The notes under the pieces are model-generated. The model worked only from the letters and a program-made list of their open reading frames with translations, ran no database searches and was not told the DNA's origin. Source: Fontimonas thermophila (GTDB lineage: Bacteria; Pseudomonadota; Gammaproteobacteria; Nevskiales; Nevskiaceae). From it: a DNA stretch of 64,000 nucleotides. Position 1 is the stretch's first letter. Each line of letters opens with the position of its first letter. The stretch is taken from positions 1-64,000 of the forward strand of contig NZ_FOOC01000007.1 in the NCBI RefSeq assembly GCF_900113085.1, given 5' to 3'. Positions 58,622 to 61,714 of this stretch are shown one piece after another. The translations under genes and the position numbers were made by a program.

Positions 58622-59596
58622 TCACGGCAGCGGTGCGATCCAGGCGCGGGCCAGACCGTGCTGCGCGCGCAGCACGCGTAGATCCGCCGCCGCCGCGGCC
58701 TTGCTGGCATAGTGTCCGCTGACGACGCGATACGTGATGCCGCCACCGTCGCGCGGCGCGGCGACGACCCGGGCATCGGCGGCGATCGCGCGCAGCCGGC
58801 GGGCCTCCTGTTCGGCCCGGCTGGCATCGGGCAAGGACGCGAGCACGATCGTCCAGGCCACTCCCACCGTGGCACTGGGCGCCGGTTGGCTGTCCGCGGC
58901 CCGGGCCGCCACCGATGGTGTTGGGCGCCAGGGCGCTGCCCCCGGGATGCGTGCAGCGGGATCGCCCGGGAACGCCGTGTGCGCCAGGCGTACGGCCAGC
59001 GTCCCATCGGCGGTGGCATCGAACGGCTGCAATCCACCGCGCCCGGCGCGCAGGCAGTGGCCGGGCGTATCGAGCCGCTGTGGGCCCTCGGGGGTCTGCA
59101 GTTCGACGGCGCCGGCGAGCACGCAGACCTCGTCGCCATCGGATGCGCGCCCGATCCATGCGTCGGCACCGAACACGCGCAGCCGCAACGCGCCGACATT
59201 GATGCGCAGATCCGCGGGCGGCAGCGGGGGTTGCGCGCGTGCATCGGCGCGCAGTGTGCCCTGGACGAGCACGAGGCGGGCGAGTCCAGCGTGCGATGGC
59301 GGATCGCCCGGCTCGAGGCTGTGCACCCACAGCTCGCTTTCCGCACCGAGCATGAGATTGCCGGCAGGGGCGAGCTGCAGGCCCACGTGCCCCACGACAC
59401 CGGTGCGCAGACGGTCGCCGGAATGAGCGGCCTCCCCCTCGTTCAGCACGGCAGGCTCGCCGCCGCGCTCGCGCTGGACTTCGCCGTACACTCGCAGTGC
59501 AGCGAGAGCCGGCGGCTGGGCGGGCGCCGCCGCCGTGAACGCCGCAAGTACGGCGGCGCAAGCTGGAACACACACAGACAGTGCAGATTTGTCCAC
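58622..59596 (-). CDS. Secreted FecR-domain protein with C-terminal SPOR domain
   Basis: The 324-residue product (GTG start at 59596, preceded by AGGGAGA) has a signal peptide ending near APAQP. A FecR-like domain follows (about 50-160; GDRLRTGVVGHVGLQLAPAGNLMLG and the VNVGALRLRVFGADAWI region). A C-terminal SPOR domain (about 248-324; WTIVLASLPDASRAEQEARRL, YRVVSGHYASKAAAAADLRVL) should bind denuded peptidoglycan at the septum. The middle is proline/alanine-rich linker. No sigma factor or TonB receptor is near, so a FecR signalling role is unlikely. An ATG at 59626 is an alternative start. Confidence 0.78.
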   Translation of the reverse strand: MDKSALSVCVPACAAVLAAFTAAAPAQPPALAALRVYGEVQRERGGEPAVLNEGEAAHSGDRLRTGVVGHVGLQLAPAGNLMLGAESELWVHSLEPGDPPSHAGLARLVLVQGTLRADARAQPPLPPADLRINVGALRLRVFGADAWIGRASDGDEVCVLAGAVELQTPEGPQRLDTPGHCLRAGRGGLQPFDATADGTLAVRLAHTAFPGDPAARIPGAAPWRPTPSVAARAADSQPAPSATVGVAWTIVLASLPDASRAEQEARRLRAIAADARVVAAPRDGGGITYRVVSGHYASKAAAAADLRVLRAQHGLARAWIAPLP

Positions 59597-59777
59597 GCCG
59601 TCGTCTCCCTGGACGGTGCTTCGCATCAAGGGTATTGCCAATCGCCCGCGGGTGTCAGCCGGCCGGCGCGCTGCTAGGATGGCGCCCGCGGTAATTCCCA
59701 GAACACATCCGCGCCCACATGCCCGAGCCTCCCAGTTCTCCTGAATTCCCGCGCGCACGGCCTGCCGCGGTTACGCC

Positions 59778-61238
59778 ATGAGCGGCATCGTCGTCGTCGA
59801 CCAGCGCACCGACTGGCCAGTCGATATCCCCGGCATCGAAGTGGTCACTGCCTGGGACTATCTGACCCACGAGATGCATACCCGCGCGCGGCGTCAGCGT
59901 GTCTACAACCTGTGTCGCTCGTTTGCCTACCAGTCCACCGGCTATTACGTGTCGCTGCTCGCCGGTGCGCGTGGCCACAAACCTTTGCCGGAGATCACGA
60001 CGATCCAGGACCTCAAGCTCGCCGAGTCGCCGCGAATCATCAACGACGAGGTCGAGGAGCTGATCCAGCGCTCGCTGGCACGCATCGGCTCGTCGGAATA
60101 CGTGATGAACGTCTATTTCGGCGACAGCCTGGCCAAACGCCACGAACGCCTCGCGCGCGCGCTGTTCAATCTGTTTCCGGCGCCGCTTTTGCAGGTCAAG
60201 TTCGTTTACCGCGGCGAGGAATGGCGGGTGGATTCGCTCGGGCCGATCGCCCTCGGCGAGGTCCCTGCATCGCATCATGAATTCCTCTACGAAGCGGCGC
60301 GCGACTATTTCTCGCGCAAGCGCAGTCCGCGCGTGCGCCGCGAGTCGGCGCGCTATGACCTTGCGATCCTGATCAACGAGGACGAGAAAGAGCCGCCGTC
60401 GAATCCCCGTGCCCTCAAGCTGTTCGAGAAAGCAGCCGAGGATCTCGGCTTCGACGTCGAGTTCATCGACAAGAGCGACTATGGCCACGTCGCCGAGTTC
60501 GATGCCTTGTTCATCCGCGAGACCACCGCGGTCAATCACCACACCTACCGCTTCGCGCGCCGTGCCGCGCGCGAGGGTCTGGTCGTCGTCGACGATCCGT
60601 TGTCGATTCTGCGGGCGGCCAACAAGGTGTTCCTGGCCCAACTGATGGAGCGGCATCGCATTCCGCAGCCCAAGACGATGCTGATCCACTCGCGCAACCT
60701 CAAGCAGGTCGCGCAGGAGCTGGGTTTCCCCTGTGTACTCAAACAGCCGGACTCGCAGTTCTCCAGGGGTGTGATCAAGATCGAAAACGCAGCCGAACTC
60801 AAGGAAAAGGCCGGCGAGATGCTGGAACGCTCGGATCTGATCATCGGCCAGAGTTTCGAGCCCACCGACTACGACTGGCGGGTCGGCGTACTCGATGGCC
60901 AGCCCTTGTACGCCTGCCGCTACTTCATGGCCAAGGATCATTGGCAGGTGGTCAAGCGCGCCGGCAACGGCGACAAGGTCGAGGGGGGTCACGAAACCCT
61001 GGCCATCGAGGATGTCCCCGCGCCGGTGCGCCAGATCGCAGTGCAGGCGGCGCGCGCGGTCGGCAATGGCCTGTATGGGGTCGATCTCAAACAGTTCGGC
61101 AAGGTGGTCAAGGTCATCGAAGTCAACGACAACCCGAACATCGACCACGGCGTCGAGGATCTTGTCCTCAAGGAGGCGCTGTACCGGCGCGTGATGGAAT
61201 ACTTCATCAAGCGCCTGGAAGCGCGCACGCGGACGTGA
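59778..61238 (+). CDS. RimK-like ATP-grasp ligase with N-terminal RLAN domain
   Basis: The 486-residue protein has an N-terminal RimK-associated (RLAN-type) domain (about 1-190, with ARRQRVYNLCRSFAYQSTGYYVSLLAGARG) and a C-terminal ATP-grasp domain (about 290-475). ATP-grasp features are the lysine segment CVLKQPDSQFSRGV, the QSFEPTDYDWRVGVLDG strand and the metal-binding GVDLKQ...VIEVNDNPNIDHGVED. RimK relatives join amino acids through carboxylate-amine ligation, for example adding glutamates. The substrate is unknown. Its stop overlaps the start of a GNAT acetyltransferase gene (GTGA), so the two likely act together. Confidence 0.88.
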   Translation: MSGIVVVDQRTDWPVDIPGIEVVTAWDYLTHEMHTRARRQRVYNLCRSFAYQSTGYYVSLLAGARGHKPLPEITTIQDLKLAESPRIINDEVEELIQRSLARIGSSEYVMNVYFGDSLAKRHERLARALFNLFPAPLLQVKFVYRGEEWRVDSLGPIALGEVPASHHEFLYEAARDYFSRKRSPRVRRESARYDLAILINEDEKEPPSNPRALKLFEKAAEDLGFDVEFIDKSDYGHVAEFDALFIRETTAVNHHTYRFARRAAREGLVVVDDPLSILRAANKVFLAQLMERHRIPQPKTMLIHSRNLKQVAQELGFPCVLKQPDSQFSRGVIKIENAAELKEKAGEMLERSDLIIGQSFEPTDYDWRVGVLDGQPLYACRYFMAKDHWQVVKRAGNGDKVEGGHETLAIEDVPAPVRQIAVQAARAVGNGLYGVDLKQFGKVVKVIEVNDNPNIDHGVEDLVLKEALYRRVMEYFIKRLEARTRT

Positions 61239-61714
61239 GCGCAAGGCCTGTGCGCGCGCGGATCCGCGATGGCCGCCCCGCCGATGCCGCGGCGGTCCTG
61301 GCGCTGGAGGCGGTCTTTGCGACGGACCGCATGTCGGCGCGCAGCATACGGCGCTTTCTTGCCAGGCCGGGCACCGTGCTCGTGGCCGAGATGGAGGGCG
61401 AGATCGTCGGCGCACTGGTGTTTTTGTTGCGCCGCAACAGCCGCTGGGCGCGGATCTACTCCGTGGTGGTCCATCCCGCGCGGCGCGGCCTGGGTCTGGG
61501 CCGGCGCCTGGTGCTGGCGGCCGAGGCGCGTGCGCGCCGTGCCGGCTGCGTGGGCATGAGCCTGGAGGTGCGCACCGACAATCTTCCCGCCCAGCGGCTT
61601 TACCGCGCCCTCGGCTATGCTGACCACGCGCAACTGGCGCGATACTATGATGACGGTGCGCCGGGCATCCGCCTGCGCAAACCCTTCGGTCGGATCGTCG
61701 AGCACAACCGGTAG
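61235..61714 (+). CDS. GNAT-family N-acetyltransferase coupled to the ATP-grasp ligase
   Basis: The 159-residue protein has the GNAT fold with RIRDGRPADAAAVLALE at the N-terminus, the acetyl-CoA motif A IYSVVVHPARRGLGLGRRLV (about 77-96) and motif B LPAQRLYRALGYAD. It starts with GTG at 61235, inside the stop codon of the ligase gene, which indicates translational coupling. It may acetylate the ligase's product or its acceptor amine. It is short for RimI, but RimI-like protein acetylation cannot be excluded. Confidence 0.82.
   Translation: MSARPVRARIRDGRPADAAAVLALEAVFATDRMSARSIRRFLARPGTVLVAEMEGEIVGALVFLLRRNSRWARIYSVVVHPARRGLGLGRRLVLAAEARARRAGCVGMSLEVRTDNLPAQRLYRALGYADHAQLARYYDDGAPGIRLRKPFGRIVEHNR

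Follow-up and report, generated by a model that had tools for sequence, protein, structure and literature searches.

Several enzyme systems that have been described previously provide points of comparison for the locus examined here. The ATP-grasp ligases RimK, LysX and ArgX all act on protein carriers, and the synthesis of N-acetylglutaminylglutamine (NAGGN) is understood to pair GNAT and ATP-grasp ligase activities within a single pathway. Within the Pseudomonadota, ligases bearing an RLAN domain are associated with a GNAT and a DUF3335 peptidase, and Iyer et al. reportedly made related amidoligase predictions in 2009. Fusions of GNAT and DUF3335 are already noted in one report (PMC10318531), and another proposes, for other ATP-grasp families, that ligation is followed by acyl capping by an associated GNAT (PMC4431377). 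The RloABC/RimABK systems of Pseudomonas display a similar logic of an ATP-grasp protein plus a peptidase, but their description (PMC12239564) indicates that the peptidase is of the retropepsin type, and that rlo includes a membrane protein and not a GNAT or C39; the Rlo system (PA1766-PA1768) was rejected as another ATP-grasp system. In the literature searched, no characterised RLAN ligase was found, nor was anything found that joins a RimK-like or ATP-grasp ligase to GCS2, FGase or C39/DUF3335 peptidase partners of the kind described below.

The window analysed here (the whole stretch of 64,000 nucleotides, from Fontimonas thermophila contig NZ_FOOC01000007.1) contains a ligase that an earlier note had described as RimK-like, with an additional N-terminal domain and with a terminal GTGA shared with the start of a GNAT gene. 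Open reading frames and Pfam searches confirmed that description (Table 1), and a profile search of the window's own genome returned a single RLAN match, which is the window ligase. The further claim that the ATP-grasp metal residues are intact was upheld: D436, E448 and N450, which are taken here to be putative metal ligands, align with the D, E and N residues of LysX and are unchanged in all 18 aligned ligases, the window's included. In a structure search that covered residues 191-486 of the predicted ligase model (mean pLDDT 77.7), residues 193-480 matched the fold of RimK, LysX and ArgX (Z about 25). Both genes look to be under constraint, judging from dN/dS values of 0.09-0.13 for the ligase and 0.10-0.37 for the GNAT (three species pairs), and the GNAT is diverging much faster, with 59% identity to the nearest congener versus 91% for the ligase.

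Table 1. Features of the ligase-GNAT locus, in window coordinates.
Feature	Position	Strand	Details and basis
RLAN-type RimK-like ATP-grasp ligase	59778..61238	+	ORF, ATG start, 486 aa; Pfam domains; fold match
RLAN domain PF14401	59856..60293	+	residues 27-172; E 1.3e-44, 151.9 bits, over cut-off
RimK-like ATP-grasp domain PF08443	60615..61145	+	residues 280-456; E 1e-9, 38.7 bits, over cut-off
GNAT acetyltransferase, RLAN-associated subfamily	61235..61714	+	GTG start, 159 aa; PF00583 (Acetyltransf_1) E 1.1e-21
GTGA overlap, ligase stop / GNAT start	61235..61238	+	sequence

The flanking genes encode envelope proteins, as had been described. A FecR/SPOR gene (58622-59758), divergent from the ligase, scores over the cut-off for SPOR and under it for FecR (21.2 bits; cut-off 24), and a DUF1329 gene, identified by Pfam, lies downstream of the pair. 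The FecR/SPOR gene and the pair may share a control region, since in 25 of 34 same-family loci (the window's included, and some of them cut short) the ligase has a relative of that gene nearby. Beyond the DUF1329 gene, on the opposite strand, lies a cytochrome P450 gene (PF00067; 63371-64000) that runs off the end of the window.

The GNAT resembles N-terminal (alpha-amine) acetyltransferases, enzymes whose members Ard1, NatC, NatA and RimI acetylate the alpha-amines of peptides and proteins. Its predicted model (pLDDT 91.6) finds its best fold matches among those four (TM 0.78-0.85 by query length), and a profile search ranked Ard1 and NatC at the top, with RimI close behind. Residues E111, Y123, Y137-Y138 and G141 (a YY..DG loop) align with E103, Y115 and the YYPTTDG segment of Escherichia coli RimI, in which E103 and Y115 presumably form the catalytic pair. 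E111 is unchanged in all 16 aligned GNATs (again including that of the window), and F replaces Y123 in both of the relatives shown in the alignment that carry the GNAT upstream of the ligase. From these comparisons, activity on a peptide alpha-amine is predicted.

The resemblance of both proteins to ribosomal modification enzymes led to no assignment as such. Against the RimK profiles TIGR00768 and NF007764, the ligase scored 74.2 bits (cut-off 143.4) and 25 bits (cut-off 331), and the GNAT scored 66.6 bits against the RimI profile TIGR01575 (cut-off 86.4). The same genome encodes a separate RimK (L057:4741-5757; 276.8 and 458.3 bits against the same two profiles) and a separate RimI (G000:C10; 134 bits), all over their cut-offs. 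Ribosomal modification by RimK and RimI was rejected because over-cut-off genes for both sit elsewhere in the genome and the window pair stays under those cut-offs. The ATP-grasp half of the window ligase has the fold of RimK; the protein carries an extra RLAN domain, scores far under the RimK cut-offs and is not the enzyme that modifies S6. Synthesis of NAGGN was likewise rejected: the GNAT reached 20.4 bits against the synthetase profile TIGR03103 (cut-off 569), for which the ligase is not listed, and a search of the genome for the amidotransferase TIGR03104 returned nothing over the cut-off (best 358 versus 570 bits). Two further candidates fared no better. Anti-phage defence was rejected when PADLOC matched none of four proteins, and RiPP maturation is not supported: 19 bases separate the ligase from the longest FecR frame and a gap of 55 bases follows the GNAT, which leaves little space in the window for a precursor gene.

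The association of the two genes was evaluated across 398 Pseudomonadota genomes, using a profile made solely from GNATs that adjoin window-type ligases; the same sample was searched for RLAN, which was found at 75 places in 72 genomes. The RLAN-associated GNAT (at least 100 bits) was present in 71 of the 72 RLAN genomes versus 8 of the 326 others (Fisher p 3e-68, with kinship between genomes not counted in). Scores were bimodal, at 101-220 bits or at 75.2 bits and below, with none between; the window GNAT scored 219.8 bits but is itself part of the query profile, and other members scored 101-170. The best match in the one remaining RLAN genome (G261) is a fragment scoring 75 bits, located where a contig ends. 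High-scoring GNATs number 87, and in 77 cases the estimated ends of a ligase are no more than 1.5 kb away; the GNAT may be on either flank and on either strand, and the link is retained as its position varies (downstream, upstream, convergent or divergent). In one genome (G253), the ligase and a GNAT-DUF3335 gene lie on different contigs, and in another (L192:5282-7285) GNAT, RLAN and ATP-grasp are fused in a single frame of 667 aa, adjoined by a GNAT-DUF3335 gene. Frames similar to that fusion were seen in two further genomes of its genus.

All eight RLAN-free genomes that carry the GNAT subfamily belong to one family. In two loci of that family the GNAT adjoins a periplasmic glucan biosynthesis gene, identified as mdoG by Pfam in one (L228:4163-6243) and judged by eye to be similar in the other (L231:4254-6367).

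Closer relatives, from the same genus, family and order as the window, were surveyed in 61 genomes, of which 55 encode a full-length ligase (one locus per genome) and six do not. A GNAT scoring 122-234 bits adjoins the ligase in 50 of those 55: it lies downstream only in 31 and upstream in 12, is fused to DUF3335 downstream on the opposite strand in four, and lies downstream with a C39 gene upstream in three (G011, G014 and G025). Three of the remaining five (G020, G023 and G031) have the GNAT at another site in the genome, scoring 192-205 bits. The other two (G022 and G042) are without it (best 52 and 51 bits), and have GCS2 and C39 instead: in G042, FGase also lies within the ligase/GCS2/C39 operon, and in G022 the start of GCS2 follows the ligase at a contig end, with GCS2 and FGase together on another contig. 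None of the six relatives without a full-length ligase has the GNAT (none above 73.1 bits; two of these assemblies are only 76-79% complete).

The pairing is not due to chance, and this follows from its conservation rather than from the four-base overlap, as compact operons often have such short overlaps. The proposal that the two genes form a dedicated pathway is thereby upheld in part: a shared function is well supported, because neither of the two refuting conditions set in the earlier note holds (ligase and GNAT stay together in relatives, and the S6-modifying RimK is a different gene), and the acetylated amino-acid conjugate named as its product is a prediction that goes beyond co-occurrence. 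Searches of the window genome did not find the peptidase that the earlier note had anticipated as a conserved third member.

That note had also missed the context in which the nearest relatives of the ligase occur. Among the nearest 80 of at least 588 confirmed ligase loci (with flanks of up to 8 kb, in some cases shortened by a contig end), GCS2 was found in 65, a C39-like peptidase in 65 and an N-formylglutamate-amidohydrolase-like gene (FGase) in 39; these counts do not describe a random sample, because the 80 were chosen as nearest to the window ligase. The usual order is C39-like peptidase, RLAN ligase, GCS2 and FGase, without a GNAT, and the records in which close relatives of the ligase occur bear titles such as Bacteroidetes, Planctomycetota, Nitrospirae and Verrucomicrobia, among others. 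Pontibacter ruber (L088) and Thiobacillus thioparus (L102) are examples of species with a GCS2 operon. A GNAT is present in only eight of the 80, all without GCS2, FGase or C39, and two loci are without all four partners; GNAT and GCS2 were mutually exclusive in the loci examined. In seven of the eight, ligase and GNAT lie side by side, and these are close relatives of the window (ligase identity 75-86%), with records titled Solimonas (two), Nevskia, Panacagrimonas, Nevskiaceae bacterium, Gammaproteobacteria bacterium and, oddly, Rhodospirillales bacterium. Solimonas flava DSM 18980 (L064) is a carrier of the pair. The eighth, from a gammaproteobacterial MAG (L076:5220-9458), has its GNAT 2.3 kb upstream and neither GCS2 nor C39; its ligase groups in a tree with those of Pontibacter (L088) and Imperialibacter (L124), both Bacteroidota, and it is possibly a second, independent partner exchange. 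On a plasmid of Legionella adelaidensis, the record annotation gives the order ligase, GCS2, FGase; near a ligase copy on a Pseudomonas aeruginosa plasmid, no such GNAT, C39, GCS2 or FGase was found within 4 kb.

The window ligase lies in the clade of these C39-RLAN-GCS2-FGase operons, and three relatives retain C39 beside ligase and GNAT; these C39-ligase-GNAT loci look like steps between the two arrangements. The window genome differs from those operons in that a search of it found no GCS2, FGase or C39 partner, and the GNAT occupies the slot of GCS2. With respect to the RLAN/GNAT/DUF3335 association, the locus shares the ligase architecture and the adjoining GNAT subfamily, whereas its GNAT has no DUF3335 domain (PF11814 peptidases were likewise not found in the one genome searched, the window's own) and its ligase lies in another clade. 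The pathway set of the window genome thus consists of ligase and GNAT only. That genome comprises 2.73 Mb in 28 contigs and is 99.6% complete. The ten congeners searched have genomes of 3.2-4.7 Mb, and the pair has survived an apparent genome reduction.

Phylogenetic analysis began from a ligase tree of 143 loci chosen from 206, of which 53 were placed in a more careful tree. In the latter, the window clade groups with GCS2-linked ligases (100/100, on a stem of 0.55), apart from other GNAT-linked ligases; the window ligase groups with the GCS2-linked L039 and L040 (97/94), adjoining G042 and G022 (97/94). The window ligase therefore belongs on the GCS2 side of that long stem. An AU test did not reject a tree in which a single branch sets the GNAT-linked ligases apart from the rest (p 0.381), and branching of the window ligase at the base of the GCS2-linked clade is compatible with it; replacement of GCS2 by GNAT, or the reverse, are therefore both compatible with the tree. 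In a GNAT tree that omits identical rows and rows under 100 residues, and that has many weak forks and very long background branches, the GNATs of the window type fall together (97) and join those that lie upstream of the ligase within the same order (88), at a fork that also contains L192 and a long background row (L210). The tree serves here solely to show this grouping of same-order GNATs.

These observations suggest a two-enzyme pathway, to which a probability of roughly one half is assigned. The RLAN-type ligase would couple a carboxylate with an amine at the expense of ATP, forming a small peptide or amino-acid conjugate, and the GNAT would acetylate, after or before ligation, a free alpha-amine, either on that conjugate or on one building block. 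The acetyl cap would stand in for the GCS2 step (probably the transfer of a glutamyl-type acyl group onto an amine), which acts with the FGase-like hydrolase in most relatives of the ligase, and the C39-like peptidase of the related operons would be dispensed with in the window's version. GCS2 enzymes acylate an amine, as in glutamate-cysteine ligases, so that GNAT and GCS2 are possibly alternative capping steps; the chemistry of GCS2 at these loci is presumed here from the family name. We infer an active ligase, a single small molecule as the target of both enzymes, and equivalent jobs for GNAT and GCS2. The GNAT subfamily of the 8 RLAN-free genomes among the 398 sampled is evidence against a single shared molecule, and the GNAT could act on another. 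Also weighing against the pathway are the faster divergence of the GNAT, the P. aeruginosa plasmid copy and the two of the 80 loci that lack all partners, and the placement of the GNAT-DUF3335 gene on a contig apart from the ligase in G253.

A second reading, which is rather unlikely, is that the ligase tags the C-terminus of a specific protein in the manner of RimK, that the GNAT acetylates that protein, or a partner of it, at its N-terminus, and that the peptidases of relatives undo the tag. The nearest folds to the ATP-grasp half are all enzymes of protein carriers, the GNAT is nearest to protein N-terminal acetyltransferases and the peptidases are indeed present in relatives, but no conserved substrate protein stands out beside the ligase: the commonest neighbours in the nearest 80 of at least 588 loci are the three partners, and the next two neighbour families (14 and 11 loci) resemble, by eye, opposite-strand frames. 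Moreover, GCS2 and FGase, which occupy this same slot, have small-molecule substrates in the families where they are known.

It is quite improbable that a free amino acid is acetylated by the GNAT to begin with and that the ligase then couples this N-acetyl amino acid to a second, as in the osmolyte route to N-acetylglutaminylglutamine amide. The GNAT-RLAN-ATP-grasp fusion matches the order of activities understood for NAGGN synthetase, and the GNAT lies upstream of the ligase in 12 relatives; against this stand the score of the GNAT (20 bits, versus a cut-off of 569), the failure to find an over-cut-off TIGR03104 amidotransferase in the genome, and a GNAT fold nearest to enzymes that accept peptide N-termini. 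That ligase and GNAT are merely co-regulated housekeeping genes without a shared pathway is very unlikely, for although short overlaps are frequent in compact operons and eight sampled genomes have the GNAT without RLAN, the link outlasts changes of order and strand, presence and absence are coupled, and one GNAT-RLAN-ATP-grasp fusion exists.

Returning to ligation with an acetyl cap, the earlier interpretation as a whole is partly supported; the ligase-GNAT association is already predicted, and the partner exchange and the loss of the peptidase are new here. More tentatively, RLAN ligases may mark out a widespread and unrecognised family of capped-peptide metabolites with an interchangeable amine cap, either a glutamyl-type cap from GCS2 (trimmed by FGase and C39) or an acetyl cap from a dedicated Nat-type GNAT, with the window's lineage capturing the exchange. 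RLAN ligases are widespread (72 of the 398 Pseudomonadota genomes sampled, with relatives in many phyla), and the occurrence of the same type of ligase with either GNAT or GCS2 (often with FGase) narrows the chemistry, in that both partners would acylate an amine, so that the question of the product shrinks from an open-ended one to a small set of candidates.
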